Below are positions 1 through 16,388 of a stretch of 16,930 bases of DNA, piece by piece. A model generated the notes under the pieces. The model was not told the origin of the DNA and did not search any database. It was given only the letters and a program-made list of their open reading frames with translations. Position numbers and translations under genes: made by a program. Source of the stretch: Pseudomonadota bacterium. Lineage in GTDB: Bacteria > Pseudomonadota > Gammaproteobacteria > Steroidobacterales > Steroidobacteraceae. Where the stretch lies: assembly GCA_021792815.1 (NCBI GenBank), contig JAJYTX010000013.1, positions 1-16,930 on the forward strand, read 5' to 3'. Within the stretch, counting starts at the first letter, position 1. Each line of letters begins with the position of its first letter.

Positions 1-814
1 TGCCGATGCCGATCATCAGATCGACCTCGCTCCACAGGTGCCACGCCGCGGCCATGTCAACCGCAAGAGGCTGGTCCTCGCCGACGATGCCGCGGCCACC
101 GCGATGCGCCACGACCGGTGCCTGCAGGCGCTGCGCGAGGGCCTGCACGGCGCCCGCGGCATGCTGCGCGCCGCTGCCGGTGAAGATCATCGGGCGGCGC
201 GCCGCGCGGATCAGCCGCACGCAGGCGGCAACCTGCGCCGCCTCCGGCGCCGCCGCCACCGCCATCTCCGCCGCGCCGCACGCGCCGATCTGCACCGACT
301 CCGCCAGCGTGTCCCAGCACACCGAAACCGCCGCCGGCCCCGGCCGCCCGCTCAGCGCCGCGCCGATCGCCGCATTGATCGCACCCGGGGCGTCCCCGGG
401 ACGCTCGATGTGACTTGCGTGCCGGGTCAGCCGCTGCAGAATGCCGAGCTGGTCGGGCAGCTCATGCAGGTGGCCGCGCCCCTTGCCTTTGAAATCCGAC
501 GGCACCTCCCCGGTGATGCACAGCGTCGGGGCACACGCGCCATACGCGGTGCACATCGCCGCCGTCGCATTCAGCACCCCGGGACCGGGAACCGGCGCAT
601 ACACACCGAGCCTGCCGCTCGAGCGGGCATAGCCGAAGGCCATGTACGCCAGTGTCTGCTCGTGCCGCGCGCCAATGGTGCGGATCTCGTCGCGACGTCG
701 ATACAGCGCATCGAACAGCGGGTAGGTCTGCGCGCCCGGCAGACCGAACACCGTGTCGACTCCGTTGGCGATCAGCGTCTCGACGATCGCGTCCCCGGTG
801 GTTCTCTGGCTCAT
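1..814 (-). CDS. ThDP-dependent enzyme, acetolactate synthase / benzoylformate decarboxylase type, N-terminal part (runs off left edge)
   Basis: Partial gene: the start is inside the window and about 271 codons are visible before the edge; the family is usually 530-570 residues, so the second half is missing. The reading begins MSQRTTGDAIVETLIANGVD, typical of the ThDP-binding Pyr domain. GARHEQ at about residues 48-53 carries the glutamate (E52) that activates the thiamine ring in this superfamily, followed by the conserved MAFGYAR and PGPGVLNA segments. From about residue 190 the central TPP-enzyme domain begins (RPMIFTGSGAQ). The ATG at 814 is preceded by GGAGAG at good spacing. The family decarboxylates or ligates 2-oxo acids in the cytoplasm; the true substrate cannot be read from this half. 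It is divergent from the LysR gene at 974, which is therefore a likely regulator. Family assignment is firm; the exact reaction is unknown. Confidence 0.9.
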   Translation of the reverse strand, partial: MSQRTTGDAIVETLIANGVDTVFGLPGAQTYPLFDALYRRRDEIRTIGARHEQTLAYMAFGYARSSGRLGVYAPVPGPGVLNATAAMCTAYGACAPTLCITGEVPSDFKGKGRGHLHELPDQLGILQRLTRHASHIERPGDAPGAINAAIGAALSGRPGPAAVSVCWDTLAESVQIGACGAAEMAVAAAPEAAQVAACVRLIRAARRPMIFTGSGAQHAAGAVQALAQRLQAPVVAHRGGRGIVGEDQPLAVDMAAAWHLWSEVDLMIGIG

Positions 815-940
815 CTGGTGATCTCTCCGCGCGGGATTCCCCCGCCTGCCGCGCAAGAGCCGCGTGCGGCTTCGGCGCACCGGCCCAGTCGCAGACGAAG
901 GGTCACTTCAAGGTACGGAGCAGGAAGCACCGAAGAAAGC

Positions 941-975
941 GTATAATTATGTGTATCTCAATCTAAAATATAGAT
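941..975. promoter_or_regulatory. AT-rich divergent control region with LysR box
   Basis: This short AT-rich island interrupts very GC-rich DNA between the divergent ThDP-enzyme and LysR genes. Positions 961-975 form a perfect inverted repeat, ATCTA-N5-TAGAT, which matches the classical LysR motif ATC-N9-GAT and T-N11-A (T962, A974). The box includes the regulator's own start codon. TATAAT at 942-947 and TAAAAT at 964-969 are possible -10 elements for the plus strand, but neither has a convincing -35. Autoregulation and control of the ThDP gene are inferred from the arrangement. Confidence 0.55.
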
Positions 976-1897
976 GATGATGCGCCCCGACCTCGATGCA
1001 ATCAACGCTCTGGATGCGGTCGTCCGCCATGGTGGCTTCGCCCGGGCAGCCGCGGCCTTGAACCGGGTCCAGTCGGCCGTGAGCTACCAGGTCGAAAAGC
1101 TCGAGGCACAGCTCGGTGTCGCGTTGCTGGACCGGTCGGGGTACCGGGTTCGACTGACCCCTGAAGGCGAGGCGCTGCTCGCAGAGGGGCGCCGACTGCT
1201 GACCCAGGCGGATCGCATGGCGTCGATGGCCCGACAGTTTGCCGGCGGCTGGGAGCCGCGGCTCACGATGATTCTCGATGGCATTCTGCCGCTCGAGACG
1301 ACGTTGCGGGCATTGCGGACCCTGGCCGAGGAAAAGGTGCCGACACGCATTCAATTGAAGGTGGAGTATCTGAGCGGCGTGCAGCTGCGGTTCGAGAAGG
1401 ACGCCGCCGACATCATGGTCGTGAAGGACTACGAGGGCCGGCCGGATCTCGAGGCGCATCCGCTCCGGGAAGTGGAATGTGTCCTCTGTGTCTCGCGCCG
1501 GCACCCGCTCGCGGATCGACCGCGCGTGACGCTGCGCGATCTTCACGAGCACGTGGAACTCTCCGTCCAGGACTCGAGCGGCCGGGGCGATGACGAGCAC
1601 ATGTTCGGGGGCGACCGGGTGTTCTACCTCGATGGCTTCATCGCCAAGAAACAGGCTCTGCGGATGGGCCTGGGATTCGGCTGGATGCCCCGCTATCTCG
1701 TCAACCGCGAGCTGCACACCGGGACACTGAGAGAGGTGCGCTATGCCGGCGGATCCCGCTATCGCTTCACGCCGCTGCTGGTGCATCGCGCCACCGCGCC
1801 GCTCGGCCGGACCGGGAGGCGACTGGCGGAGCTGCTCGTGGGCGGATCTCTGGCAGACCACGGAGAGCCCGCCGATTTCGGGTGCGCCGTGAAGTAG
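974..1897 (+). CDS. LysR-family transcriptional regulator
   Basis: A 307-residue protein, the normal length for LysR regulators. Residues ~4-63 form the winged helix-turn-helix (ALDAVVRHGGFARAAAALNR, then QSAVSYQVEKLEAQLGVALL), and the remainder is the periplasmic-binding-protein-like effector domain, ending with the usual GLGFGWMPRYLV effector-pocket region. It binds DNA and normally responds to a small molecule linked to the adjacent divergent gene, here a ThDP-dependent enzyme. Three consecutive ATGs (974, 977, 980) could start it and none has a Shine-Dalgarno sequence. With a TAAAAT element at 964-969 a leaderless transcript is possible. Its effector is unknown. It is clearly different in sequence from the LysR remnant immediately downstream. 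Confidence 0.93.
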   Translation: MMMRPDLDAINALDAVVRHGGFARAAAALNRVQSAVSYQVEKLEAQLGVALLDRSGYRVRLTPEGEALLAEGRRLLTQADRMASMARQFAGGWEPRLTMILDGILPLETTLRALRTLAEEKVPTRIQLKVEYLSGVQLRFEKDAADIMVVKDYEGRPDLEAHPLREVECVLCVSRRHPLADRPRVTLRDLHEHVELSVQDSSGRGDDEHMFGGDRVFYLDGFIAKKQALRMGLGFGWMPRYLVNRELHTGTLREVRYAGGSRYRFTPLLVHRATAPLGRTGRRLAELLVGGSLADHGEPADFGCAVK

Positions 1898-1948
1898 CGG
1901 TGGCGTGGCTGCGACGCTGCGGGGACCGACGACCGACGCGGGCCAGGA

Positions 1949-1993
1949 GCGCGAAGCGTGGGTCAGCGCCTGTGCCGGATGGGCGCTTCGCGC
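1949..1993. terminator. Inverted repeat between convergent LysR genes, possible terminator
   Basis: GCGCGAAGCG at 1949-1958 is perfectly complementary to CGCTTCGCGC at 1984-1993, giving a 10-bp stem with a 25-base loop. It lies just after the intact LysR gene and across the stop codon of the convergent LysR remnant. There is no T-tract, so a terminator role is only a possibility. Confidence 0.3.
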
Positions 1994-2454
1994 GGGTGCA
2001 GGCGCCGGCCCGCGGCCGTGATCTGCGCGATCAGCCAGCGCAGTCCGGGGTCGTGCGACCGGGCCTTGTTGTATTGAATGGCCTCCGTGAAGCTCAATGG
2101 CGAGGCCAGTTCCTGGATCGCCAGCGGAAATTCTCTGACGTACAGCCTGGCGAGTCACAGCGGCACGATCGCAAGCCGGTCCGTCTGGACGAGAAAGCGC
2201 GGAATGAGGCCGTAACCGGCAACGAGAAATGCCGTTCCGCGCATGTGACGAGCCTTCAGGTGCGCGTTGACCATGGTGCGGGGCCGCCTGGAGTCGCCGA
2301 ACCGTGCCGCGACCCGTGGCGAGGCAGCCAGCATCGCATCGCTGAGCGGACGGGCCATGACGGGATTGTCCTTGCATCCGATGACGACATACCGGTCCGT
2401 GAGCAGCGGCACCGAAGGATGCTCCTCGGCGAGGAACTCCCGAGGCATGATCAG
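1963..2454 (-). pseudogene. LysR-family regulator remnant (NahR/NodD-type), C-terminal half only, with internal stop
   Basis: Reading the minus strand from about 2454 gives LIMPREFLAEEHPSVPLL, then TDRYVVIGCKDNPVM, GYGLIPRFLVQTDRLAIVPL, a TGA stop at 2155-2157, and in the same frame LARLYVREFPLAIQELASPL, SFTEAIQYNKARSHDPGLRW and the normal end at 1963. This is the effector-binding half of a LysR regulator of the NodD/NahR/DntR kind, with the family landmarks in order: LIMPxEF, the TDRIAxLP-like segment and the DPxxxW C-terminus. The DNA-binding half is absent; upstream sequence switches abruptly at ~2454 to the arylsulfotransferase remnant on the other strand. The in-frame TGA could be a single-base change from CGA (Arg). 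The gene is truncated and interrupted, so it is not expected to work. Recognition is by eye from family motifs. Confidence 0.8.
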
Positions 2455-2616
2455 CCGTTCACGGGCCCGATGCCGCTCAGCAACGGCCGGGTCCGCTGGG
2501 TGTACCGGATTCAGGCCATCCCTTGCGATTGGGTGCCGACGGGCGTGCCGCACACCGAGATACCGGTCCACGTGCCGCGGCTGGCAACGTTTCACCTGCC
2601 GTTGGGGCGCTCCTGA
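2452..2616 (+). pseudogene. Arylsulfotransferase-family gene remnant, last ~54 codons
   Basis: In the plus-strand frame ending at the TGA at 2614-2616, residues PFTGPMPLSNGRVRWVYRIQ and AIPCDWVPTGVPHTEIPVHV align without a gap to the C-terminal tail of the intact protein encoded at 7380-8771 (PFVGRGPGGLKAIPWVYRVQ, AVPYSWLPAGVRQSEIPVHP). Identity is high around WVYR-QA-P and EIPVH. Nothing homologous lies 5' of ~2452, where the LysR remnant begins on the other strand, so about 90% of this gene is gone, including all catalytic residues. Divergence from the intact copy suggests an old duplicate or a separately acquired paralogue rather than a recent duplication. Confidence 0.8.
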
Positions 2617-2667
2617 CGTAACCCCCGGTTGAGACAACGACGTGCCAGACGGCAATGTCCTACACGA

Positions 2668-2699
2668 GCGGCCGCGCCGGGACGCGTCGGCGCGGCCGC
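2668..2699. terminator. 11-bp perfect inverted repeat downstream of the arylsulfotransferase remnant
   Basis: GCGGCCGCGCC (2668-2678) and GGCGCGGCCGC (2689-2699) form a perfect 11-bp stem with a 10-base loop, 51 bases after the remnant's stop and 83 bases before the sigma-factor start. It is very GC-rich but has no T-tract. It may be the old terminator of the lost arylsulfotransferase gene, or may insulate the sigma-factor gene. The rest of 2617-2781 shows no gene; GGAACC at 2735-2740 resembles an ECF -35 but no matching -10 is seen. Confidence 0.45.
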
Positions 2700-2781
2700 G
2701 TTGGCCGGTTGATCTGAATGGCATTGCGCGGCCGGGAACCTCAGTGCATGCTGGCGCAGGGTGCCGATTGGGGGGGCTTGC

Positions 2782-3366
2782 GTGACGGAGACCGGAGAGC
2801 AATATCTCCGTGAAGCCCTCGAGTCCGAAGGGCTCCTGCGGGCATACCTGTTCCGTATCGTGCGGAACATGGCGGACGTGGACGAGCTGCTCCAGGAAAC
2901 GTACGCCCGGCTGCTGGCCGGCCCCGCGGCGGATCGGGGCGAGGTCCGCTCCGTACGGGCGCTCGCGCTCGCCATCGCCCGCAACGCGGCGCTCGACTGG
3001 CTGCGGCATCGCGATGTCGTGCCCATGAGCCTGATGTCGGATTTGGCCGCGCTGGACGTCTTGGATGAAAGCGCCCGGGTGGAGGAGATCGTCAATGCGC
3101 ATCAGGAGCTGGCATTGCTCGCGGAATGCGTAGAGGAGTTGCCGGCACGCTGTCGGCAGGCGTTTACGCTGCGACGCGTCTACGGCCTGTCACAGTCGGA
3201 AATCGCCGAGCGTCTCGGCATTTCCGAAGGCACCGTGGAACAGCTCATCGCCCGCGCCATCCGCCGCTGCGCCGAGCGGCTGTTCGCGCGCGAGGGCGTG
3301 GAGGACCGCCGGGACTCCCTGAGCCGGCGCCTGAGCCGGAGGCTGAGGCGTGATGCGCAGCGCTGA
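2782..3366 (+). CDS. ECF sigma factor, FecI-like
   Basis: A 194-residue RNA polymerase sigma factor of the extracytoplasmic-function class. Region 2 is at about residues 18-85 (LLRAYLFRIVRNMADVDELL, with DxDELLQETYARL), and region 4 at about 115-165 contains LPARCRQAFTLRRVYGLSQS and EIAERLGISEGTVEQLI, the -35-binding helix-turn-helix. GTG at 2782 is preferred over an in-frame GTG at 2761 because a G-rich ribosome site (2769-2775) sits at correct spacing. Its 3' end overlaps the FecR-like gene by up to 17 bases, indicating translational coupling, and a TonB receptor with an STN signalling domain follows. This is the standard cell-surface signalling order: the receptor senses its ligand, the FecR-like protein relays the signal, and the sigma factor transcribes the receptor operon. 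The substrate need not be iron. Confident family call. Confidence 0.93.
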   Translation: MTETGEQYLREALESEGLLRAYLFRIVRNMADVDELLQETYARLLAGPAADRGEVRSVRALALAIARNAALDWLRHRDVVPMSLMSDLAALDVLDESARVEEIVNAHQELALLAECVEELPARCRQAFTLRRVYGLSQSEIAERLGISEGTVEQLIARAIRRCAERLFAREGVEDRRDSLSRRLSRRLRRDAQR

Positions 3367-4405
3367 GGACATCGAGGCCCAGGCGGCGCAATGGATTGCC
3401 CGATGCGATCACGATGCCCACGGCAGCGACGCCGGCCTGCTTGCGTGGCTGGCCGCGGACCCGCGCCACCGCGCGGCCTACCTCAGACTGGCGGAAGCCT
3501 GGCGCCGTTCGGGCCGGCTGCAGCGTCTGCGACCGACCGACGGTCTCATCGATCCGGACCTGCTCGCGCCGCCCCGGCCGCCGACGGGGTGGCGGCGACT
3601 GAGGCGCCGCGACCGAGCGTCCGCTGAAAGCGGGCACCGCAGAGTGCCGCGAGCACTGGGGTGGAGTGCGGCGGCGGCCCTTGCCGCGGCCGCCTGGGTG
3701 CTGTGGTGGGCGCTGGCGCCGCCCGCGCCGCCCGCGGTGGGCACTCAGCGTACGGGCCCGGGAGATCTCTATCGGGCGGTGCTGGCCGACGGCTCATCGG
3801 TCATCCTCAATGCCGATACGGACATACGGATTCGATACACCGCCGAGCGCCGCAGCATCACCCTGGTCCGTGGTGAAGCCCAGTTCCTGGTGCGCCACGA
3901 CCCGCGCCGGCCCTTTGACGTTCACGCCGACGGCCATCTCGTGCGCGACGTCGGAACTCACTTTGACGTCCGAATCAACGGCCGCCGTTCGCTGGTGGTG
4001 CTGGTGACGCGAGGCCGGGTTGCGGTGCTGCCGGCAGACGGGCCCGGACGGTCGCCGCCGGCGATCCCGCCGCCGACCATTTCGGCCGGAGAGCTGGCTT
4101 CGGTCGAAGCGGGGCAGGTCACCGTCAGGCGCCTCACCGCCGCAGACATCTCGCGCCGCCTTGCGTGGAAGCACCGCAAACTGCACTTCCAGGGCCAGAC
4201 GCTCGGACAGGCGGTCGCCGAATTCAACCGCTACAACTCCTCACGGCTCGTGATCCGAAGTCCGTCGCTCGCATCGGTGCGGATCGGCGGAAACTTCGAC
4301 GCCATCGACACGGACAGCTTCGTCGCCGCCCTGAATCGCTCCTTCGGCATCCTCGCTCGCCACGACGGCGGCCGCATCTACCTTTTCGGTCCGGCCGCGC
4401 GTTGA
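3350..4405 (+). CDS. FecR-like anti-sigma factor / transmembrane sensor
   Basis: A 350-residue inner-membrane regulator. Residues ~5-55 form the cytoplasmic FecR N-terminal domain that binds the sigma factor (QAAQWIARCD, then DPRHRAAYLRLAEAWRR). A single membrane helix follows at ~103-123 (LGWSAAAALAAAAWVLWWAL). The periplasmic FecR domain at ~135-230 contains VLADGSSVILNADTDIRIRY and the RGEAQFLV segment. The C-terminal ~275-348 region resembles an STN fold (QGQTLGQAVAEFNRYN). The start is GTG 3350 or ATG 3353, both served by GGAGG at 3338-3342. It overlaps the sigma gene and precedes the receptor, so it should couple ligand binding by the receptor to the sigma factor, by analogy with FecR. 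Nothing looks truncated. Confidence 0.93.
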   Translation: MMRSAEDIEAQAAQWIARCDHDAHGSDAGLLAWLAADPRHRAAYLRLAEAWRRSGRLQRLRPTDGLIDPDLLAPPRPPTGWRRLRRRDRASAESGHRRVPRALGWSAAAALAAAAWVLWWALAPPAPPAVGTQRTGPGDLYRAVLADGSSVILNADTDIRIRYTAERRSITLVRGEAQFLVRHDPRRPFDVHADGHLVRDVGTHFDVRINGRRSLVVLVTRGRVAVLPADGPGRSPPAIPPPTISAGELASVEAGQVTVRRLTAADISRRLAWKHRKLHFQGQTLGQAVAEFNRYNSSRLVIRSPSLASVRIGGNFDAIDTDSFVAALNRSFGILARHDGGRIYLFGPAAR

Positions 4406-4409
4406 GACG

Positions 4410-4439
4410 TCGCGCGGGCCGTGCCGCCGCCCCGCGCGA
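4410..4439 (+). terminator. Hairpin between the FecR-like gene and the TonB receptor gene
   Basis: TCGCGCGGG (4410-4418) and CCCGCGCGA (4431-4439) form a perfect 9-bp stem with a 12-base loop, starting four bases after the fecR-like stop. With no T-tract it could be a weak terminator, an attenuator reducing read-through from the regulators into the receptor, or an mRNA-stabilising structure. The 112-base gap also holds GAGGGGG (4507-4513), a strong ribosome-binding site for the receptor. Confidence 0.4.
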
Positions 4440-4517
4440 TGTAGGAATATCCGGGCTCGGGCGTCCAGCAGTGGAAGCCCAACCACTCGGGCCGCAAAAA
4501 ACAGTAGAGGGGGATTC

Positions 4518-7307
4518 ATGTCAGAGGCCAATCGCCCGCGAACGGGCGCCGTGTGTGCCGCGCTGGGGGCATTCCTGTTGGGCATTGCCACAACCGCCGC
4601 CGCGCAGGCCACTTCGGCCGAGTTCCACATCGCGGCGCAGCCTGCGCCGCAGGCGCTGAACCAGTTTGCGGCACAGGCCCACGTGCAGCTCCTGTTCAAC
4701 TACAAGGCGCTCACGCGCTTCAGGTCGCAATCGGTCGACGGGCAAATGGCGCCCACGGATGCGCTCACGCTGTTGCTGCGCGGGACGGGCTTCACCTTTC
4801 AGCGGGTGAACCGCCGTACCTTCGCGATCGTTCCGGCGGCGCCACCTGCGGGCGACGCGCGTGCAAAGCACCGGAAACGCGCCTTGTCTCCTCCTTCCCC
4901 GCTCCGACCCGCGCCCGCGGACGGGCCGATCACCGGCTCCAGTGCGCCGCTGCCCGCCTTGCAGGAAGTGGTGGTCACGGCCGAGATGAAGCGGGAGAAC
5001 ATCCAGAATACGGCCCTGCTGATCGATGCCGTCAAAGGCTCGACACTGAGCAATATGGGAATGACCAATTCCTATTCCCTGACCCGTCTCGTTCCGTCCC
5101 TTACCCTGGAAAACGGCGGCGGCTCGAACACCGCGCTGTTCATGAACGGCGTCGGAAACAAGACCGGCAACAGCTATCTCGATCCCGCCATCGCGGTCAG
5201 CTACGATGGCGTCTACATGGGGCGTGCGGCGGCGGCCTTTGGTACCGCTTTCTTTGATCTGGCGCGGGTCGAGGTGCTGAAGGGGCCGCAGGGCATCCTG
5301 TACGGAAAGAACGCCACCGGCGGCGCGATCAACATCATCCCCAACCCGCCGCGCCTGCATCGCATGTCCGGCGGCATCGACGCATCATTGGGAGACTACG
5401 CGACGCGAGTGGTTCAGGGGCACATCAATCTGCCGATCGGCGCGGACGCGGCGGTGCGCATCGCCGGCGCCCACCAGTCGCATCGAGGCTACAATCTGGA
5501 CGGCACCGGGGACCAGGATACCGACGCCGGACGGGTGCAGTTTCTGTATGAGCCCACGCCGCTGCTCTCGCTGCGCCTGGGCGCGGACTACGCGCACCTC
5601 GGCGGCAAGGGCGCGGGCGGCAGTTATGTCGGAAACTTCACGCCCAGCAAGTCCGGTGGTTTCACCTTTACGCCTTCCAGACTGCCGGTCAACGAGGGGC
5701 TGAATACCCCCGCGGCCAATGCCTATCGCTCGACGCTGCTGGCCGCCCCCGGGTTCGGCTTCTTCACGCCGATGAATTCAACGCCGCGCGACGACTATAC
5801 GTATTGGGGATTGGACGGCCACCTCCACTATCGTACTCCGCACGGCACGCTGACGCTCATTCCCGCGTATCGGGTCACGCAAGGCGCCACGACTTTCACC
5901 GGACCGGCCTTCAACATGGCGAGGGTCGACGAAACCGATCGCCAGTACAGCTTCGAGGGCCGATACCTGGGCAGCGCGAGCATCTTCGACTATCTCGGCG
6001 GATTGTATTACTTCCATGAGACGATTCGGAGCGCTGACGAATTCAATCAGGAATTCGTGCTGCCGATGCAGCAATACCGGCAGCTCACCACATCCTGGGC
6101 GGCGTTCGGTCAGTTGACGACGCATGTCACCAGGCGGCTGCGGTTCGTGGTGGGCGGGCGCTATACGCGCGACAAGAAGACATTTGACGGCACGATCGAC
6201 AACTTCATCACCTTCTGCGGCGGCGTGCCGCCACACAATCTCTCTCCGCCCGCTTCCTTCGCGCAGGGCTGTGCATCGCCCACGGGTCTGCCGCGCTATC
6301 CGGATGACTACTACCGCCAGTCGGCGTTGAACTGGCTGATCACGAATGGCTGGATCGCGCCCGGGAGCACGCTGAGCAACGGGCCGGTGCAGGTATTTCC
6401 TCTGCTCGATGGCGTCGGGTCGATCCAGAGCGCGTACTCCAGCGTGGATACCAGCGGCACATTCAGCAAACCGACCTGGAAGACGTCGCTGCTGTACAAC
6501 GTGGCGCCCACGTCCCTGCTCTACGCGACGCTCGAGACAGGCTATCGCGCCGGCGGGTTCCAGCTCGCGCAGTCGGTGCCGCGGTACGCCCCGGAAACCA
6601 TCCGCGCCTACACCTTGGGATGGAAGAACGAGCTGCTGAACCATCGGCTGGTGCTCAATGCGGATGCCTTCCTCTGGCAGTATCACAATCAGCAGGTCAC
6701 GTACTTCACCGTCGATCCGAGCGGCGTGCTGATCAGTGCGACGGAGAATGTCGGTCAGATGAGCATCAAGGGGGTGGATCTCGACGTCATCAGCCGATTG
6801 ACGCACACCACCATCGTGAATGCCAAGCTGGACTATCTGCACAGTGTCTACGATAACTTTCTGCGCTATACGGCGGCTCCGCGCAACAACATCAACTGCC
6901 CGTATACACTGACCGGGAAGAAGGTCGGGGGCGCCCCGGAAGAGGCGTTCAACTGCGCCGGCAGGCCGGGGCTATATGCGCCGCGATGGATGGCCGACTT
7001 CGGCCTCGAGCAGCAGATGCCCATCGGCGAGGCGTACGATCTCGTCGGCAGTGTCCAGACGGCGTGGCGGGATACGGAGTATGGGGCGTTCGAGTATCTC
7101 AATTTCGAGAAGATTCCGGCCTACTTCAGCACGGATCTCAGTCTGCGGCTGATGAATCTCGATCACGGCTGGACCGTCGGGCTCTATGCGCGGAATCTCG
7201 AGAACGTTCGCCAACCGACGGGACCTCAGCTGGCCCCGACCGGGCAGGCGATCGTGCAGTACGGCGCCCCGCTGACGTACGGTATCCGAGTGAGTGACCG
7301 TTTCTGA
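4518..7307 (+). CDS. TonB-dependent outer-membrane receptor with N-terminal STN signalling domain
   Basis: A 929-residue outer-membrane transporter. Residues 1-30 are a Sec signal peptide ending TTAAAQA. Residues ~33-106 are an STN domain (QPAPQALNQFAAQAHVQLLF and TDALTLLLRGTGFTFQ), which contacts the FecR-like protein. A proline-rich linker leads to a TonB box around EVVVTAE (150-156). The plug follows at ~158-278, with the hallmark RVEVLKGPQGILYGKNATGG, and then a 22-strand barrel ending in an aromatic residue (GIRVSDRF). It takes up a ligand too large or scarce for porins, using TonB energy, and signals its presence through the upstream sigma/anti-sigma pair. Plug and barrel resemble the large proteobacterial receptor group that includes transporters of plant aromatics and other non-iron ligands. 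The substrate cannot be read directly; the arylsulfotransferase-like gene 72 bases downstream is the best clue. Confidence 0.95.
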   Translation: MSEANRPRTGAVCAALGAFLLGIATTAAAQATSAEFHIAAQPAPQALNQFAAQAHVQLLFNYKALTRFRSQSVDGQMAPTDALTLLLRGTGFTFQRVNRRTFAIVPAAPPAGDARAKHRKRALSPPSPLRPAPADGPITGSSAPLPALQEVVVTAEMKRENIQNTALLIDAVKGSTLSNMGMTNSYSLTRLVPSLTLENGGGSNTALFMNGVGNKTGNSYLDPAIAVSYDGVYMGRAAAAFGTAFFDLARVEVLKGPQGILYGKNATGGAINIIPNPPRLHRMSGGIDASLGDYATRVVQGHINLPIGADAAVRIAGAHQSHRGYNLDGTGDQDTDAGRVQFLYEPTPLLSLRLGADYAHLGGKGAGGSYVGNFTPSKSGGFTFTPSRLPVNEGLNTPAANAYRSTLLAAPGFGFFTPMNSTPRDDYTYWGLDGHLHYRTPHGTLTLIPAYRVTQGATTFTGPAFNMARVDETDRQYSFEGRYLGSASIFDYLGGLYYFHETIRSADEFNQEFVLPMQQYRQLTTSWAAFGQLTTHVTRRLRFVVGGRYTRDKKTFDGTIDNFITFCGGVPPHNLSPPASFAQGCASPTGLPRYPDDYYRQSALNWLITNGWIAPGSTLSNGPVQVFPLLDGVGSIQSAYSSVDTSGTFSKPTWKTSLLYNVAPTSLLYATLETGYRAGGFQLAQSVPRYAPETIRAYTLGWKNELLNHRLVLNADAFLWQYHNQQVTYFTVDPSGVLISATENVGQMSIKGVDLDVISRLTHTTIVNAKLDYLHSVYDNFLRYTAAPRNNINCPYTLTGKKVGGAPEEAFNCAGRPGLYAPRWMADFGLEQQMPIGEAYDLVGSVQTAWRDTEYGAFEYLNFEKIPAYFSTDLSLRLMNLDHGWTVGLYARNLENVRQPTGPQLAPTGQAIVQYGAPLTYGIRVSDRF

Positions 7308-7379
7308 TCGTTTCAGCTCGAGTGATATCCGATCATTCCGTATTGACGCACACACGTTTTGAAACCGAGGTATGGATCA

Positions 7380-8771
7380 ATGAAGTTCCTTAATCGCGGC
7401 CCGCGGGGGCCTGTCGCGAGGGTATTGCTGCTGGCGTGCTCACTGACGGCGGCCGGGGCTGTCCTGGCGGGCCCCAGCGTCTATCCGACCGGGGTGACCC
7501 GCTACGATCCTTCGAAGGCCTACAACTGCGACGTCCTGTTCAGTCCACCGGACGGGAAGACCTACCTCATCGACATGAACGGCCACGTGCTGCATGTGTG
7601 GAACTACGGAGGATTTCCGGCGAGGATGCTCAGCCCGGCTTCGACGGGCGGCATCAAGGGGGAAATCGGCGTGCAGACCGCGCTCGTGCCCGCGGGAAGC
7701 CGCGCCGGGGCGATCAGTCTGGTGCCGGGGCAGAAGGGGCAGTTTGCGGATCTGACGTTCGGCTACGTCAGCTGGCAGGGGAGGATACTCTGGCAGTGGG
7801 GCACGCAGGCCCCGGGAGGGGCGGTGCTGCAGCATCATGACTGGCAGCGCCTGCCGAACGGCGACACGCTGATTCTCGGTAACGTCGTCACGCGGCTGAA
7901 GGGATTCGGCACGCGGAGGATGCTCGACCCGGTGGTCTACGAGGTCAGTCCGGCTGGGCGGATCGTCTGGAGCTGGAGGGCGTCGCAGCACCTGAAAGGC
8001 CTGGGGTTCAGCGGCGCGCGGCTGAAGCTGATGGAGCGCGACGCGCCGGCGGATTACCTGCACATGAACGCCATGCAAGCTCTCGGCCCGAATCACTGGG
8101 CGGCGTCCGGCGATCGGCGCTTTGCGCCGGGCAACATCCTCATCAGCTCGCGCAATGCGAATTTCCTCGCCATCATCAGCCGGCGCACGGGACACATCGT
8201 CTGGCGTCTGGGCCCGAACTTTCCGCCGCGCAAAACGGTCGTGTTTTCCGATCTCGGGAAAAAGGCGCCTTTCCCGGTCGACGGCTTCAGCGGGCAACAC
8301 GACGCGCACATGATCCCGCCGGGGCTGCCGGGCGCAGGCGACCTGCTGGTGTTCGACAACGAGGGGGAGGGCGGCTATCCGCCCGCGGATCTTCCAGTGG
8401 TGTCCGGCTCGCGCGTGCTCGAGATCAATCCGGTCACCCGGGAGGTGGTGTGGCAATATACCGGCACGAAGCGCACGTTCTTCAGTCCGTTCATCGGCAG
8501 CGCGCAGCGACTGCCAAACGGCAACACGCTGATCGATGAGGGAATCTGGGGCCGGTTCTTCCAGGTGACGCCGGCCGGAAAGATCGTCTGGGAATACCTG
8601 TCGCCTTTTGTCGGCCGGGGTCCCGGCGGACTGAAGGCCATTCCATGGGTGTATCGGGTCCAGGCTGTGCCCTACAGCTGGCTGCCGGCCGGTGTGCGCC
8701 AGTCGGAAATACCCGTGCATCCACCGGTATTCGGAAAGTTTCACGTGACAGCGGGAGGGGCCGCGCGCTGA
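7380..8771 (+). CDS. Exported arylsulfotransferase-family protein
   Basis: From ATG 7380 (GAGG just upstream) the protein has 463 residues; an in-frame TTG at 7359 would add seven and is less likely. Residues 1-31 form a signal peptide (VARVLLLACSLTAAGAVLAG), so it should act in the periplasm. The body has the repeated beta-propeller motifs of arylsulfate sulfotransferases: HHDWQRLPNGDTLI, DYLHMNAM, NILISSRNANFLAIISRRTG, GQHDAHMIPPG and DLLVFDNEGEGG. By position these supply candidates for the family catalytic set: H153, H228, R258 and H307, the last being the likely sulfurylated histidine. Family enzymes move sulfuryl groups between phenols without PAPS. It lies 72 bases after the TonB receptor in the same direction, so is probably co-transcribed. 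A truncated relative is at 2452-2616. The family also contains members of untested activity, so the reaction is inferred. Confidence 0.85.
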   Translation: MKFLNRGPRGPVARVLLLACSLTAAGAVLAGPSVYPTGVTRYDPSKAYNCDVLFSPPDGKTYLIDMNGHVLHVWNYGGFPARMLSPASTGGIKGEIGVQTALVPAGSRAGAISLVPGQKGQFADLTFGYVSWQGRILWQWGTQAPGGAVLQHHDWQRLPNGDTLILGNVVTRLKGFGTRRMLDPVVYEVSPAGRIVWSWRASQHLKGLGFSGARLKLMERDAPADYLHMNAMQALGPNHWAASGDRRFAPGNILISSRNANFLAIISRRTGHIVWRLGPNFPPRKTVVFSDLGKKAPFPVDGFSGQHDAHMIPPGLPGAGDLLVFDNEGEGGYPPADLPVVSGSRVLEINPVTREVVWQYTGTKRTFFSPFIGSAQRLPNGNTLIDEGIWGRFFQVTPAGKIVWEYLSPFVGRGPGGLKAIPWVYRVQAVPYSWLPAGVRQSEIPVHPPVFGKFHVTAGGAAR

Positions 8772-8778
8772 TCGGAGT

Positions 8779-8822
8779 CTGCCGGTGCGGTGGCCTCGGC
8801 TTCGAGGCCGCGGCACCGGCAG
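8779..8822. terminator. Long hairpin terminator between convergent operons
   Basis: CTGCCGGTGC (8779-8788) pairs with GCACCGGCAG (8813-8822), and inside it GGCCTCG pairs with CGAGGCC around a GCTT loop. Together they make a ~20-bp stem with one small internal mismatch, beginning eight bases after the arylsulfotransferase stop. It lies between that gene and the convergent 68-aa gene, so it could terminate transcription from both sides. There is no T-tract, as is common in GC-rich genomes. The remaining 110 bases to the next gene hold only a minor repeat, CTCAGTC/GACTGAG (8866-8872/8886-8892). Confidence 0.65.
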
Positions 8823-8932
8823 AGCCGGGCGCGGGCCGGGATGCCGTCATGGTCATCGATGGCCGCTCAGTCGTGCGTTCCCGTGGACTGAGGAGGGGAC
8901 GGCACGAGGCGCGCGGTGTTCGGGGGCGCCGG

Positions 8933-9139
8933 CTATCCCCGCCGGAACGGCAGCGTCAGCAGAAACAGAATCGTGCGCAGGTTCAGCAGACCGAGCGCCT
9001 TGCGCGCCTCGGCCGGCTTCAATTTCGCGGTGATCGGCATGGCGCCGAACAGCTTGCCGCGGATCACCAGATCCGAGCCGCTGCGCTCGATGGAGGTGAC
9101 GGCCATCATCTCCCGGCCGTCGGCGCCGTAGATCTTCAT
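8933..9139 (-). CDS. Small conserved-looking protein coupled to the FAD oxidoreductase
   Basis: A 68-residue protein whose ATG at 9139 overlaps the TGA of the upstream oxidoreductase gene by four bases (ATGA), a hallmark of translational coupling. It begins MKIYGADGREMMAVTSIERS and ends in a short hydrophobic stretch LLNLRTILFLLTLPF, possibly an amphipathic or membrane-touching helix, with basic residues at the terminus. I do not recognise a named family. The regular alternation of charged and hydrophobic residues in the first 40 positions (SDLVIRGKLFGAMPITAKLK) suggests a small beta-rich fold. A role as partner or membrane anchor of the oxidoreductase is a guess from the overlap alone. That it is a real gene is supported by the overlap and the coherent composition. 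Confidence 0.7.
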   Translation of the reverse strand: MKIYGADGREMMAVTSIERSGSDLVIRGKLFGAMPITAKLKPAEARKALGLLNLRTILFLLTLPFRRG

Positions 9140-10725
9140 GGGCGTGCGGTCACCACTTTTTCGAAGTCGATGTTCAGGTCGTCGAACACGCGGATGGCGG
9201 TGGCGCGGCCTGCGCCGTACACGCCGCCGCCCGGGTGCATGAAGGGGCCCACCAGGTACAGCCGCTCCACGCCCGGCACCGTGAACTGTGACAGATCCGG
9301 TGTCGGCCGATGGCCGGCGGTCTGATAGAAATACGGCGCGATCCCGTGCACGTCCCCACCGGGCATGCTGGTCGGCAGGTTGCGCGCGTGATCGAGCGGG
9401 GTGACGATGGTGCGCCGGATGATGTTGTCGGCCGTCAGGTTCTTCACGAACCGCTGATAATGCCGCAGGCTCCGGTCGCCCATCTCCTCGCGGATCTCGT
9501 CCCAGCGCGCGGCGCCTCCGTCCTCGAGGTCGTAGGGCGCGAAGGTGATGCCGTGAAACAACCCGCAGCCGGGCGGCACGCGGCTGGGGTCGCCGATGCT
9601 CTCGTCGCCTCCGGCGCCGAGCACGCGCTCGGAGATGCGGCCACGGCGCAGCGCATCGAAGTCATCCAGCATGTCACTCAACCGGTCGCTCGCCATGAAC
9701 TCCAGCATGATGGCGTCTTCGACTTCCTTGCCGGCATGGTACTGGATGCGCTCCCTCAGATCGTAATGGCTCACCATGATGCTGAACGAGGCGAGCGTGG
9801 TGCGCTCGGCCCGCTGCAGCACCGGCTCGGGTACCCCGGTGACGAACCGTCGCAATACATGCGGATGCAGCGCCGCAATGACGGCATCCTTCGCCCTGAA
9901 CTGCTCGCCGGTGGTCAGCTCCAGGCCCACCGCGCGGCCGCCCGAGGTCAGCACTCTGCGCACCTCGGCGTTGCAGCGCACCTCGCCGCCGTAATGCTCG
10001 ATGCACCGCACCAGCGCCTCGGTCAGCTTGCCGCTGCCGCCGATCGGCTGCGAGACCCCGAAGCCGTGCATCAGGCCGGGCATCAGGAACATGCCGAAGC
10101 CCGTGCCGAGCTCATCGGGCATCTGCAGATTCTCGCTCACCAGACGCAGCAGCCAGATCCTGACTTTCTCGCTCTCGAAGGACTGCCGGGCGATTTCCAG
10201 CGAGCTGCGCTGCATCGCATCGAGGATCTCTCGGCCCTCGTCGCTCTGATCCATCATGGCGACGAACGCGCCGAGCGGCAGCGGCGGGGCGTAGAGGCCC
10301 GCCGCGAACATCGGCAGCATCTGCATGGCGCGCTCGGCGAAGCGGCGGTAGGTCTCGGCATCCTTCGGCGAGATCCGGGCGATGCCCTCGCAGGTCCGGT
10401 CGAGATCCTTGTACGCGACCAGGGTCGTCTGGTCGCGGAAGATCATGGCGTAAGGGGTGCCGTAGCGGTACTTCAGCCCGAACCGGGCGATCAGGCCCAG
10501 CTCGTCGTCGCGGATCAGGGGGTTGCCCTGGATCATGATGTGCACGCTCGAGTGCTCATCGTGCCAGTAGCCGGGCGTGTTGATTTCCCGGGTGACGACC
10601 CCACCGCCCGGCCAGGCCTTGCGCTCCAGGACCAACACCTTCCTGCCGGCCTTGGCGAGGTAGGCGGCCGCGGTGAGGCCGTTGTGGCCCGCGCCCAGGC
10701 CGAGGACATCGTATTGAGAGCTCAT
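9136..10725 (-). CDS. FAD-dependent oxidoreductase, phytoene desaturase / PYROXD2-like
   Basis: A 529-residue flavoprotein. The N-terminus YDVLGLGAGHNGLTAAAYLA holds the Rossmann GxGxxG (G11, G13, G16), with the ribose-binding acidic residue E34 in VLVLER followed by WPGGGV. The C-terminal FAD-contact motif is GVERLYLVGPFMHPGGGVYG followed by AGRATAIRVFDDL. This N- and C-terminal signature is that of the CrtI/PYROXD2 branch of the amine-oxidase/phytoene-desaturase superfamily. Members desaturate or oxidise hydrophobic substrates, but this branch is mostly uncharacterised. Length is normal. No convincing ribosome site precedes ATG 10725. It is divergent from the dehydrogenase at 10860 and coupled to the 68-aa gene. 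A carotenoid role is unlikely because no other carotenoid gene is nearby; a catabolic oxidation is more consistent with context. Confidence 0.88.
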   Translation of the reverse strand: MSSQYDVLGLGAGHNGLTAAAYLAKAGRKVLVLERKAWPGGGVVTREINTPGYWHDEHSSVHIMIQGNPLIRDDELGLIARFGLKYRYGTPYAMIFRDQTTLVAYKDLDRTCEGIARISPKDAETYRRFAERAMQMLPMFAAGLYAPPLPLGAFVAMMDQSDEGREILDAMQRSSLEIARQSFESEKVRIWLLRLVSENLQMPDELGTGFGMFLMPGLMHGFGVSQPIGGSGKLTEALVRCIEHYGGEVRCNAEVRRVLTSGGRAVGLELTTGEQFRAKDAVIAALHPHVLRRFVTGVPEPVLQRAERTTLASFSIMVSHYDLRERIQYHAGKEVEDAIMLEFMASDRLSDMLDDFDALRRGRISERVLGAGGDESIGDPSRVPPGCGLFHGITFAPYDLEDGGAARWDEIREEMGDRSLRHYQRFVKNLTADNIIRRTIVTPLDHARNLPTSMPGGDVHGIAPYFYQTAGHRPTPDLSQFTVPGVERLYLVGPFMHPGGGVYGAGRATAIRVFDDLNIDFEKVVTARP

Positions 10726-10859
10726 CGGCGCAGGCTAACGGGCGCGGGCACGGATGTCTAATTCATGCCGTCCATGCCCGCCATCAGCCGTAACGATGCC
10801 TCAGCGCCCGCCCACGCGGTAACATGGTTTTGTCAATGTTCAAGGCACAGGGGTACTCC

Positions 10860-11600
10860 ATGCGGCATCAGGGGAAAGTGGCGCTCGTGACCGGCGGCAG
10901 CAGCGGGATCGGTCAGGCGATCGCCTGCCGCCTGGGGCGCGAGGGCGCGAAAGTAGCGATTGCGGATGTCGCGGACGCGGGCGAGACTCTGGCGCTGCTG
11001 AGACCATCCGGCGCGGAAGGCCTCGCATCGTCGTGCGACATTTCCGATCCCCGGCAGGTCGCAGCGTTCGTGGCCCAGGTGGGCCAGCGTTTCGGCCCGC
11101 CGCAGATCCTGGTGCACAGCGCGGTCGTACAGTTTGTCCGGCCGTTCGAAGAGCTGTCGCTCGAGGACTGGCGGCGCACCCAGGCGGTCAATCAGGAGTC
11201 CATGTTCCACCTGCTGAAGGCGGTGCTCCCGGGCATGAAGGCCGGGCAGTGGGGCCGCATCATTGCCATCGCTTCCTCAACTTTCTTCGTGGGTGCGTCG
11301 GCCATGACCCATTACGTCACCAGCAAGGGCGCGCTGATCGGCCTGGTGCATGGGCTCGCAGCCGAGGTCGGCCCGTTCGGGATTACGATCAATGCCGTGG
11401 CGCCGGGGCTGACGCGGACCAAGGCGGCGGCGGCCGATCTGCCCCCGGAGCTGTTCGCCCAGATCGCTGCCCTGCAATGCATCAAGCGCAACGGCACGCC
11501 GGAAGACCAGGCGGCACTGGTGTCGTTCCTCGCTTCCGAGGAAGCCGGCTTCATCACCGGGCAGAGCATTCTGGCCGACGGCGGCCAGGGCAGGACCTGA
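10860..11600 (+). CDS. Short-chain dehydrogenase/reductase (SDR), classical type
   Basis: A 246-residue cytoplasmic NAD(P)-dependent oxidoreductase. TGGSSGIG at residues 11-18 binds the cofactor, and the aspartate in IADVAD suggests NAD(H) preference. The catalytic set is complete: S139 in IAIASSTF, Y152 and K156 in HYVTSKGA, plus an asparagine in AVNQES. The usual NNAG motif is replaced by VHSAV. PGLTRTKAA and the C-terminal GQSILADGGQ fit the family. An upstream in-frame ATG at 10824 would add twelve residues, but AGGGG at 10849-10853 fits the ATG at 10860 and places the GxxxGxG at the usual distance from the N-terminus. The next dehydrogenase follows after 33 bases, so they are probably co-transcribed. 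The substrate is unknown; a hydroxy/keto step of an aromatic or alicyclic pathway is plausible. Confidence 0.93.
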   Translation: MRHQGKVALVTGGSSGIGQAIACRLGREGAKVAIADVADAGETLALLRPSGAEGLASSCDISDPRQVAAFVAQVGQRFGPPQILVHSAVVQFVRPFEELSLEDWRRTQAVNQESMFHLLKAVLPGMKAGQWGRIIAIASSTFFVGASAMTHYVTSKGALIGLVHGLAAEVGPFGITINAVAPGLTRTKAAAADLPPELFAQIAALQCIKRNGTPEDQAALVSFLASEEAGFITGQSILADGGQGRT

Positions 11601-11633
11601 GCCCTTCAGCATCGCGCGCAGCAGGAACCTCCG

Positions 11634-12434
11634 ATGAAACCCAGTCTTGGACAATCGAGCATGCGTTCGGATCGCCTGGCGGGCAAAGTGGCGCTGGTCA
11701 CCGGTGCGGGCAACGGAATCGGTCGCGGCTGTGCCCTCATGTGCGCGCGTCATGGTGCCCAGGTGATCGGCTCGGACCTCGATGCCACGGCGGCGCAAGA
11801 GACCGTGGCCTTGGCCGCACAGGAAGGCCTCACTCTGACGAGTCTGCACCCGATCGATCTGACGGTACCGGCCGACGTCGAGCGCATGGTCGCGCGCGCG
11901 GTGGAGCAATTCGGGCGGCTCGATATCCTGGTGAACGCCGGCGCCTGGGGCGCCTTCGAGTGGATCGAGAACATGGACTACCAGCGGCATTGGCGCCGGA
12001 CGCTGGCCGCGGAGCTCGATTCGGTGTTCCTGGTGTGCAAGGCGGCATGGCCGCACCTGAAGGCGAGCGGCGCGGCGTCGATCGTCAACTTCGCTTCGGC
12101 CAATGCCTACGTGGCGCTGCCAGGCTCCGGCGCCCTGGCCCATTGCGCGGGCAAGGGCGGGGTGCTGTCGATGACCCGGCAACTCGCCATGGAAGGCGCG
12201 CCGCACCAGATCCGCGCCAACACCATCAGCCCCGGCCTGGTGCTCACCGCCGCCACCCGGCCCGTCATCGAAGGCAACCCGCAGATTCGCGAGGCGGCCC
12301 GCAGTAAGATGATGACTGGCCGCTTCGGTCAGCCGGAGGACATCGCCTGGACGGTGGTCTATCTGGCGTCCGAAGAAGCCTCCTGGGTGACCGGCGCGGA
12401 CTTCTCCATAGACGGCGGCGCGACGGCCTGGTGA
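11634..12434 (+). CDS. Atypical short-chain dehydrogenase with His replacing the catalytic Tyr
   Basis: A 266-residue SDR-fold protein. Cofactor site TGAGNGIG is at residues 23-30, LVNAGAWG replaces NNAG, serine S155 lies in IVNFASANAY, and the end is GADFSIDGGATAW. At the position of the catalytic tyrosine the sequence reads ALAHCAGKGG: H170 with K174 retained, so the YxxxK motif is HxxxK. The codon is a clear CAT. Similar HxxxK proteins are known among SDRs, and some, like 2,4-dienoyl-CoA reductase relatives, work without that tyrosine. The chemistry may therefore differ from simple alcohol oxidation. ATG 11634 has AGGA just upstream; M10 is an alternative. It follows the first SDR by 33 bases and precedes the CoA ligase. 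Confidence 0.9.
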   Translation: MKPSLGQSSMRSDRLAGKVALVTGAGNGIGRGCALMCARHGAQVIGSDLDATAAQETVALAAQEGLTLTSLHPIDLTVPADVERMVARAVEQFGRLDILVNAGAWGAFEWIENMDYQRHWRRTLAAELDSVFLVCKAAWPHLKASGAASIVNFASANAYVALPGSGALAHCAGKGGVLSMTRQLAMEGAPHQIRANTISPGLVLTAATRPVIEGNPQIREAARSKMMTGRFGQPEDIAWTVVYLASEEASWVTGADFSIDGGATAW

Positions 12435-12448
12435 CCTGACGGGCGCCC

Positions 12449-12471
12449 GGCTGGGCGTCTGTCGCCCAGCC
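12449..12471 (+). terminator. Hairpin after the SDR pair
   Basis: GGCTGGGCG (12449-12457) and CGCCCAGCC (12463-12471) make a perfect 9-bp stem with a 5-base loop, 15 bases after the second dehydrogenase stop. It has no T-tract. It probably ends or attenuates the SDR transcript before the CoA ligase. The rest of the gap to 12684 shows no recognisable gene or promoter; the ligase frame is open through it, but the translation there does not look like protein. Confidence 0.5.
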
Positions 12472-12684
12472 CGACGGGATGATCCGGGCAGGCGGGCCAT
12501 CATGCGCCGACGCATGAGCGCCGCAGGGATGCCCACCGGTTGTGTCCGGCGGGCGGTTCGGTGGCATCATGCGCTCGCGGGTGCCGACACTGCGGGGGAA
12601 TCGGATGCTCGAGGGCGAGACGAATCGTCTGGATCGCGTGGCGCGTGCCGGCACGAGACCGTCTCGCCTGGTCTTGCCGTACCC

Positions 12685-14544
12685 GTGTCCGAAATCCACC
12701 GCATGAGACCCCGACCCGGTCTGTTCGCGGATGCCGCCATCGAGTGTCAGGCCGATCCCGACGGATTCCTGCGGCTGCGTTCGCCGAGCGCGCTGGGTGC
12801 CTACCCCGCCAACATGGGCCTCTACCTCGAGCAGTGGGCCCGGACCGCTCCCGACAGAGCATTTCTCGCGGAACGAAATGAGGACGATCGGTGGCGGATC
12901 CTGACGTATGCCGAGGCGCGGCGACGCGTGCGCCGGGTCGCGACGGCGCTGCTGAGGAACGGACTCCCGGCAGACCGTCCAGTCATGATCCTGTCCGACA
13001 ACGGCATCGAGCATGCGCTGCTCATGCTGGCGGCCCTGCACGTGGGCGTTCCCAGCGTGTCGGTCTCGCCCGCCTATTCGCTGCTTTCCCGGGACTTCGC
13101 CAAGCTTCGCGACATCGTGACCCTGGTCGGGCCCGGCTGGATTTACGCCGATGATCCGCCTCGCTACCGTGACGCCCTCGAGGCGGTGCGCGGCCTGCAT
13201 TCCGCGGTCCTCGTGGCCGGGCAGGGGCGCGGCGAAGGCGCAGCCCTGGGGTTCGAGGGACTGGACGTCGAAGAAGACCGGTCCGCGGTCGACGCAGCAT
13301 TCGCCCAGGTAGGGCCGGACACGGTCGCGAAGCTGCTGTTCACTTCCGGCTCGACCGGTGAGCCCAAGGGCGTCATCAACACGCAACGGATGCTGGTGAG
13401 CAACCAGCAGGCGAGGGGGCAATGCTGGCCGTTTCTCGAGCGGGCCCCGCCGATCCTGGTCGACTGGCTGCCGTGGTCCCATACCTTCGGGGGCAACCAC
13501 AACTTCAATCTGGTCCTGCGGTTCGGCGGCACGCTGTACATCGATGCCGGTCGGCCGGTCTCCGGGCGATTCGCCCCGACCGTCGCCAACCTCAAGGAGA
13601 TCGCGCCGACGGTCTATCTCAACGTGCCCCGCGGTTATGAAATGCTGGTTGCCGCGCTCGAGCAGGACCCGGAGCTCAGACAGCGGTTTTTCAGCCGCCT
13701 CGAGCTCATGTTTTATGCGGCGGCCGCCCTGCCGCAGCACCTGTGGGAGGCGCTCACCGCGCTGGCCGTTCGGACCGTGGGCGCGCCCGTGCCGCTCGTG
13801 TCCGCGTGGGGCGCAACCGAGACGGCACCTCTGGTCACCGACTGTCATTTCCAGGCATCTGGCACCGGCTGCATCGGCATCCCGGTTCCCGGCGTCGTGC
13901 TCAAGCTGCTGCCGAGCGGCGAGAAGCTCGAGGTGCGCGTCAAGGGCCCGAATGTCACGCCGGGCTACTTCAAACGCCCCGATCTGACCGCGCAGAGCTT
14001 CGACGAGCAAGGCTTCTACCGGATCGGGGATGCCGTGCGTTTCGTCGACAGGGCGCATCCCGAACGCGGATTGCTGTTCGATGGTCGAGTGGCGGAGGAC
14101 TTCAAGCTCGATTCCGGAACCTGGGTCAATGTCACGGCGCTGCGATTGAGAGCGATCAGCGCGCTGGCGCCGATTGCCCAGGATGTCGTGGTGGCGGGGC
14201 ACGACCGTTCCGACGTGAGACTGCTGATCTTCCCCAATATGAGCGCCTGTGCGTCACTGTGCGCCGGCGCCCGAGCAGACGCCTCGATCCAGGAAGTTCT
14301 GGCCCATCCTGCCGTTCGCGCCCGCGTCGGGCTGGCGCTGCGGGCGTTGCGCGCCGAGGGCGGCGGATCCTCGAGGTACGCGGCCGCGGCACTCCTCATG
14401 GACGAGCCGGCCTCGATCGACGCCGGAGAAATCACGGACAAGGGGTACATCAATCAGGGCGTGGTGCTGCGCCGGCGCGGCGATCTCGTCACGCGGCTGT
14501 ACGCGGCGGACACGCCGGATGTCATCCCGTTGGCTGAGCGCTGA
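12685..14544 (+). CDS. fcs: Feruloyl-CoA synthetase-type AMP-forming acyl-CoA ligase
   Basis: An adenylate-forming ligase of ~619 residues. LLFTSGSTGEPKGVINTQRM is the AMP-binding signature. WLPWSHTFGGNHNFNLVL, FGGTLYIDAGRP and IAPTVYLNVPRGYEMLV are the distinctive segments of the feruloyl-CoA synthetase subgroup, followed by WGATETAPL, the FDGRVAEDFKLDSGTWVNV region and GEITDKGYINQ, which carries the likely catalytic lysine. Such enzymes convert ferulate and related hydroxycinnamates to CoA thioesters in the cytoplasm using ATP. The frame is open back to ATG 12502, but residues encoded before ~12685 look unlike protein and exceed the family length; GTG 12685 or ATG 12703 fits, though neither has a strong ribosome site. 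No hydratase/lyase gene (ech) or vanillin dehydrogenase (vdh) is adjacent, so the true acid substrate is uncertain. Confidence 0.88.
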   Translation: MSEIHRMRPRPGLFADAAIECQADPDGFLRLRSPSALGAYPANMGLYLEQWARTAPDRAFLAERNEDDRWRILTYAEARRRVRRVATALLRNGLPADRPVMILSDNGIEHALLMLAALHVGVPSVSVSPAYSLLSRDFAKLRDIVTLVGPGWIYADDPPRYRDALEAVRGLHSAVLVAGQGRGEGAALGFEGLDVEEDRSAVDAAFAQVGPDTVAKLLFTSGSTGEPKGVINTQRMLVSNQQARGQCWPFLERAPPILVDWLPWSHTFGGNHNFNLVLRFGGTLYIDAGRPVSGRFAPTVANLKEIAPTVYLNVPRGYEMLVAALEQDPELRQRFFSRLELMFYAAAALPQHLWEALTALAVRTVGAPVPLVSAWGATETAPLVTDCHFQASGTGCIGIPVPGVVLKLLPSGEKLEVRVKGPNVTPGYFKRPDLTAQSFDEQGFYRIGDAVRFVDRAHPERGLLFDGRVAEDFKLDSGTWVNVTALRLRAISALAPIAQDVVVAGHDRSDVRLLIFPNMSACASLCAGARADASIQEVLAHPAVRARVGLALRALRAEGGGSSRYAAAALLMDEPASIDAGEITDKGYINQGVVLRRRGDLVTRLYAADTPDVIPLAER

Positions 14545-14635
14545 CGCGGCTCCAGGGGGCGGAGCAGCCGCTCGCGCCTGAGGCGCTGCGCGTGTCCGGC
14601 AGTCCGGTCGAGAATCCGGGCCGGCGCGGGCCTCC

Positions 14636-15187: not shown

Positions 15188-15218
15188 CGGAATCTCCCGG
15201 GCACAAAAAGGTGCCGTC

Positions 15219-15247
15219 TTCACAGGAGCAGGCTCTCATCCTAGGCT
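15219..15247 (+). promoter_or_regulatory. Candidate promoter of the Rieske oxygenase gene
   Basis: TTCACA (15219-15224) and TAGGCT (15242-15247) are spaced by 17 bases and lie 42 bases before the oxygenase ATG. The first hexamer matches the sigma-70 -35 consensus at five of six positions, the second matches -10 at only three, as expected for an activated or regulated promoter. The site is inside the divergent HxlR/oxygenase gap, where an HxlR dimer should bind. Tentative. Confidence 0.35.
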
Positions 15248-15289
15248 TGTGCCTCAGACCGCGCGCCGAGACGCGGCCGAGGAGCCCAC

Positions 15290-16318: not shown

Positions 16319-16388
16319 GTCCGGAGGGCCGAGCGGCTTCGCCCTGACCCCGTGCCACGCACTCCATCCGTATCCGCCTGACGTTGGA

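Follow-up and report, generated by a model that had tools for sequence, protein, structure and literature searches.

Near the left end of the window (the whole stretch of 16,930 nucleotides analysed here), a fragment of a LysR-type regulator gene and a fragment of an arylsulfotransferase gene meet at their broken ends, upstream of an intact arylsulfotransferase unit that begins with an ECF sigma factor gene (Table 1). Given this arrangement, we wondered whether the two fragments are what one deletion left of a divergent gene pair or whether they came together in another way, and whether the loss says anything about the control of the surviving sulfotransferase. The first-pass annotation, made from the sequence itself, had read the locus as a deletion scar and as the trace of a LysR-controlled arylsulfotransferase whose control was replaced.

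Table 1. Features of the window discussed in the text, with the evidence on which each assignment rests
Feature	Position	Strand	Evidence
Intact LysR gene, left flank	974..1897	+	Pfam HTH_1 and LysR_substrate; 87-96% protein identity in L117-L120
~7.04-kb block that four relatives lack (an island, or lost repeatedly)	1889..8926		blastn; edges placed to within some tens of bases
NahR/NodD-type LysR relic, codons 149-311 and stop (C-terminal 163 codons)	1963..2454	-	matches to P0121, P0122 and NodD2
In-frame TGA in LysR relic, codon 248 of P0121	2155..2157	-	translation and alignment
Junction of the two truncated genes	2454..2455		points on the window where the P0121 and P0009 alignments end
Second arylsulfotransferase relic, last 53 codons and stop	2455..2616	+	homology to P0009 tail
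Perfect 12-bp inverted repeat, 8-nt loop, no T run, between relic and sigma gene	2668..2699		repeat search
ECF sigma factor gene	2761..3366	+	Pfam Sigma70_r2 and r4_2
FecR-type anti-sigma gene	3350..4405	+	Pfam FecR; DUF4880 below cut-off
TonB-dependent receptor gene with N-terminal STN domain	4518..7307	+	Pfam STN, Plug and TonB_dep_Rec_b-barrel
Intact arylsulfotransferase, present copy	7359..8771	+	Pfam Arylsulfotrans and Arylsulfotran_2; clade with P0001/P0002
FAD oxidoreductase gene, right flank	9136..10725	-	Pfam Amino_oxidase; 93-94% identity in L117-L120

The nature of the junction was addressed by TBLASTN of three close relatives of the fragments, P0121 and P0122 for LysR and P0009 for the sulfotransferase, against the window. 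Residues 147-310 of P0121 align with positions 2460-1969 on the minus strand at 88.4% identity over 164 aa (E 6e-93), and P0122 reaches 72% over 153 aa. On the plus strand, residues 401-461 of P0009 align with positions 2428-2610 at 70% over 61 aa, the first nine residues matching poorly, while the relic proper is 80-81% identical to the P0009 tail (80% over 46 aa). Residue by residue, the LysR homology stops at Leu149 of P0121 (window 2454-2452) and the sulfotransferase homology begins at Pro410 of P0009 (window 2455-2457), with a mismatch at the adjacent outward codon in both cases; the ends of the alignments thus place the junction at 2454|2455 within about one codon. LysR codons 1-148 and sulfotransferase codons 1-409 are missing, and the natural 3′ ends are retained on both sides (LysR stop at 1963-1965, sulfotransferase stop at 2614-2616). 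The meeting of two relics at about 2454, each with its 3′ end kept and its 5′ end lost, is therefore real, as the first-pass annotation had claimed, and what it had described as the last ~54 codons of an arylsulfotransferase proved to be 53 codons and a stop; homologs of both stretches, LysR and arylsulfotransferase, were recovered. In 200 shuffled copies of positions 1963-2616, scored against the same three proteins, the highest bit score was 24, compared with 292, 223, and 95 for the real sequence (P0121, P0122, and P0009, respectively). A Pfam search of both relic fragments gave no match at E up to 1. Taken together, two 5′ truncations, two intact 3′ ends, and one sharp junction were found, the pattern of a deletion across a divergent pair, and the locus is likely the deletion scar of a former LysR/arylsulfotransferase pair. 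A direct repeat (2385-2410/2556-2581, 81% of 26 nt) is not regarded as the cause of the deletion, given that it flanks the junction and does not lie on it.

The NahR/NodD-type class previously assigned to the LysR half is borne out by NodD2 of Rhizobium plasmids, which matches the relic at 33% identity over 159 of 161 aa (E 2e-16; 271 records match), and by the solved relatives of P0121, where 1utb, 1uth, and 2uye, which we take to be DntR of the NahR/NodD type, align over residues 3-289, with the solved LysR chains 9x6w and 9iib scoring above them. It is the effector-binding C-terminal domain that can be aligned to the NodD/NahR relatives. The N-terminal winged helix-turn-helix (HTH_1), present along with LysR_substrate in intact P0121 and P0122, is absent from the relic. 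Unlike the regulators that it resembles, the relic has nothing of the DNA-binding half and contains a stop, the in-frame TGA that had already been pointed out and that we recovered in the alignment. It is a remnant, not a working member of the family. With P0122 as the outgroup (149 columns, TGA left out), the relic carries 7 unique changes versus 3 in P0121, a small difference that weakly fits relaxed constraint. A search with 100 residues of the relic, compared with 5.8 billion proteins, gave 276 candidates and 2 matches, P0121 and P0122. No close relative was found in 217 genomes searched with the relic at 1e-12 (13 matches, best identity just 37%) or in 396 genomes searched with P0121 at 1e-45 (15 matches, best identity just 42%), and viral contigs searched with P0009 and with P0121 returned no match.

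On the other side of the junction, P0009, like the present sulfotransferase of the window, matches both bacterial arylsulfotransferase (ASST) families of Pfam (PF05935 and PF14269) above the cut-off. Both domain matches end ahead of the tail, and the relic, which keeps 53 of 462 codons and matches the tail of P0009, differs from arylsulfotransferases in lying beyond the Pfam domain altogether; accordingly, the 47 aa of tail that were scanned had no match to either family. The surviving tail would hardly be active, as far as the sequence can tell. None of the conserved histidine blocks of the sulfotransferase alignment falls within it, and in the family profile, which has 465 positions, the match of the solved sulfotransferase 9kf4 spans 148-405. 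Among 5.8 billion proteins, the 53-residue tail had P0009 as its sole candidate and sole match. In short-query blastp at E up to 10, it matched 118 of the 120 sulfotransferases listed (the best 120 of 5119), the lower ranks weakly, and it is 54% identical over 37 aa to the sulfotransferase of the window itself. We also considered the relic as a recent duplicate of that gene and rejected this origin: in a tree built from the present gene together with 62 relatives (the first 62 among the best 120 of 5119), P0009 groups with P0012 (support 97/82) and the present gene with P0001/P0002 (98/89).

Whether the two lost genes had been a pair before the deletion is a separate question, and here P0122 and P0009 are informative. 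One was retrieved with the LysR half and the other with the sulfotransferase half, and they agree in their longest contig (3970 bp) and in their sources (ncbi and ena), suggesting that they are probably neighbors on one contig; we regard this as indirect but strong evidence of adjacency. P0009 is the only one among the best 120 of 5119 sulfotransferases with a longest contig of 3970, and the single check that we made of contig size as a pointer was positive, with P0028 (listed 6594) encoded on a contig of 6594 bp, L002. A LysR gene of 942 bp and a sulfotransferase gene of 1389 bp account for 2331 of the 3970 bp, which leaves at most 1639 bp (1.64 kb) for everything else, and a former divergent LysR/arylsulfotransferase pair is therefore likely. 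The order and orientation of P0122 and P0009 we infer from their common contig size together with the scar, which supplies the divergence. An intact pair in a relative is suggested by the shared contig size and sources; no genome with such a pair came to light among the 217 to 396 genomes searched. For P0121, the closest LysR (contig 10273), no matching sulfotransferase was among the hits. A P0121-like LysR was found beside none of 62 sulfotransferase loci at E 0.1, most of these loci being distant (many at 25-35%) and some of the contigs short; likewise, for 60 of these 62 loci, which came from a scan of genome contigs, the relic LysR matched within the stored flanks of none at E 0.01. The other LysR of the window, in the left flank, weakly matched three of the 62 (L006, L016, and L057). 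Sulfotransferases reaching E 1e-60 occurred in 12 of 296 genomes in the order search and in 3 of 217 in the family search (5 to 7 candidates scored per genome where shown), and none of them is close to P0009.

Beyond the earlier observations, what is new is the place of the scar, which lies at the left margin of a block of 7.0 kb that is absent from four relatives. We searched the whole window against 217 genomes of one family, reached via the gammaproteobacterial locus L002, with two candidates scored per genome. Both flanks lie on a single contig in at least four genomes among the matches listed (G167, G082, G117, and G313; blastn), and the block is missing in all four of these; there may be further genomes in which the two flanks occur together, whether the block is present or not. 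At the empty sites, window position 1862/1888 is followed by 8927-8937, with gaps between the flanks of 96 nt in G167, 986 nt in G082, and 193 nt in each of G117 and G313. The flanks are well conserved, as in G167, where window 3-1888 and 8927-12434 match at 90 and 88% identity, and as in the proteins of the two flanking genes, the FAD oxidoreductase match in L120 covering residues 303-528 only. Four further genomes (L121-L124) have the left flank only and no piece of the block. About 566 bp of block sequence separate the left edge from the junction. The intact LysR of the left flank is not close to the relic, the best blastp match between them being 11 residues. Judged from these sequences, insertion of the block in the lineage of the window would be the simplest reading, and loss in the four relatives is possible. 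Among the best 120 of 5119 sulfotransferase matches, four are named Steroidobacteraceae. No tRNA and no Rfam match at gathering score were found in the window, no integrase among the four intact genes of the block (Pfam), and no exact repeat longer than 9 bp common to the block edges (1840-2010 and 8741-8960).

Since the scar sits in a block absent from four genomes with both flanks on one contig, the pair probably arrived with this accessory block rather than being ancestral to the site. Of the claim that a LysR-controlled arylsulfotransferase once stood here, the pair itself is supported by P0122 and P0009, and control of the sulfotransferase by the LysR protein is putative. The empty site has a history of its own. 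In G082, the gap (L118, between 10299 and 11286) holds an intact gene X of 259 aa from ATG, with Chalcone_N just above the cut-off, of which G117 and G313 keep just a 36-codon 3′ tail at 53-56% identity (L119:4631-4738 and L120:2838-2945). This truncation in sister genomes implies that the convergent intergenic site has seen gene loss there too. We also looked for remains of gene X, the resident of this site, at the two edges of the block and rejected this possibility, as the matches were no better than chance. To the right, G167 and G082 also lack a second stretch of the window (12435-16457, with an AMP-binding enzyme, an HxlR regulator, and a Rieske/VanA oxygenase); in both genomes, window 12434 comes within 100 bp of 16458/16459.

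As a whole account, we favor a single-deletion scar of a divergent LysR/sulfotransferase pair inside the accessory block, with a probability of roughly 0.7. According to this reading, a NahR/NodD-type LysR gene on the minus strand and an arylsulfotransferase gene on the plus strand would once have stood divergently at the left end of the block, upstream of a second, differently controlled unit of sigma factor, FecR, TonB receptor, and sulfotransferase. One deletion would then have taken the front codons of both genes and their common promoter region, a coding loss of 1.67 kb, to which no more than 1.64 kb of spacer would be added if the layout was as on the 3970-bp contig of P0009 and P0122. 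The remaining 3′ ends, joined at their broken ends and facing outward, would since have decayed without function, as the TGA and the few extra substitutions suggest. In itself, the scar is an ordinary, well-preserved case of gene loss and decay in an accessory block.

The main alternative is a larger deletion that also removed genes between the two, such as a TonB-dependent receptor, in which case direct LysR control of the sulfotransferase is not required. A divergent TonB receptor does lie directly upstream in 7 of 10 distant loci of NodD-like LysR genes (L125-L128, L130, L131, and L134; 34-42% identity; 10 of the 15 matches in 396 genomes), but a receptor gene of 2.2-2.8 kb is too big for the 1.64 kb or less available if a single 3970-bp contig carries both P0122 and P0009, and we regard this course as unlikely. 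An assembly chimera, with the ends of two unrelated contigs fused at 2454/2455 and the intact genes elsewhere in the organism, deserves mention given that many of the closest matches come from sources that we take to be metagenome assemblies. Against it, the TGA lies inside the LysR half, away from the junction, the join is inside a block bounded by conserved flanks, and a random chimera is not expected to unite halves whose nearest relatives share a 3970-bp contig size and sources; such an artifact appears quite improbable. Two truncations or a rearrangement, for example tails united by block insertion or recombination, would suit the position close to the left boundary of a block that relatives lack, where recombination joins happen, but with the junction ~566 bp inside that boundary and the halves matching the outcome of one deletion in a divergent pair, we consider this very improbable.

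If a divergent pair was lost by one deletion, as we favor, the scar is a clean fossil of a regulator probably paired with a rare sulfotransferase lineage, and P0122/P0009 would be a testable candidate for a LysR-controlled sulfotransferase pair whose inducer could be found. In the literature, judged from titles and abstract beginnings, we found no report of a LysR gene beside an arylsulfotransferase of this kind. A parallel is the SftR cluster of Pseudomonas, likewise a LysR regulator beside sulfate ester genes, described for Pseudomonas sp. UW4 as atsACBR-sftR-atsK-sftP (PMC3596284); the part of that paper dealing with the cluster names an arylsulfatase and an alkylsulfatase, and not this sulfotransferase. 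The likeness is one of gene arrangement. The SftR paper itself is Kahnert et al. 2002, as cited in PMC9694294.

We then turn to the suggestion that the control of this activity was replaced, which these data do not demonstrate. Over its full length, the present sulfotransferase shares 68% identity with P0009, and it falls in a different supported clade, so that the present and the relic genes are not recent copies of each other; the survivor may just have outlived a separately acquired second unit. The data are explained just as well if two units were acquired separately and one of them was later lost as they are by replaced control. Both sulfotransferase units, of different ancestry, may once have coexisted side by side, and the loss of one need not mean a change of control. 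The sigma and FecR genes themselves resemble those of a widespread module found in the same bacterial family: in 6 of 6 fetched sigma/FecR/receptor loci, the sigma factor of the window is 73-84% identical and FecR is similar. Unlike in the window, however, the gene after the receptor (the frame taken as such) encodes a PBP-like protein, and not a sulfotransferase, in all six. The N-terminal STN part of the receptor is 53-64% identical in two of these loci (L136 and L138), the rest of the receptor having no match there, and in the other four the receptor is 29-32% identical over a longer stretch. This pattern, read from sequence comparison, would be compatible with possible domain shuffling in the receptor of the window. 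A search with the receptor barrel at 1e-90 (4 candidates scored per genome) found it in 3 of 217 genomes; around these matches, the fetched stretch contains a LysR gene in two cases (at a distance of 5 kb in one; 29% identical and located downstream in the other), whereas FecR and an STN part accompany the third. Evidence that the barrel was taken from a LysR-paired receptor is thus mixed. Members of the receptor family occur both close to LysR genes and together with FecR, and mixing of control parts seems common here, which leans somewhat toward replaced control without giving an order of events. It is tempting to speculate that a LysR-run, inducible sulfotransferase was followed by, and then lost to, a cell-surface-signaling unit whose sigma/FecR/STN parts came from a widespread module fitted to another receptor and sulfotransferase; we hold this to be rather unlikely. 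Between the relic and the sigma gene, the inverted repeat at 2668-2699 was not recognized by our scan as a terminator-like site.

Sulfotransferase loss is not confined to this locus. In G082, a broken arylsulfotransferase lies at another place (L089:8522-9705, on contig 67), with a luciferase-like monooxygenase on one side and a CofH-like radical SAM gene on the other. It is 80-82% identical in nucleotides to the copy of the window and has a gap of ~50 codons and four frame changes, implying that the sulfotransferase family has been lost at least twice.
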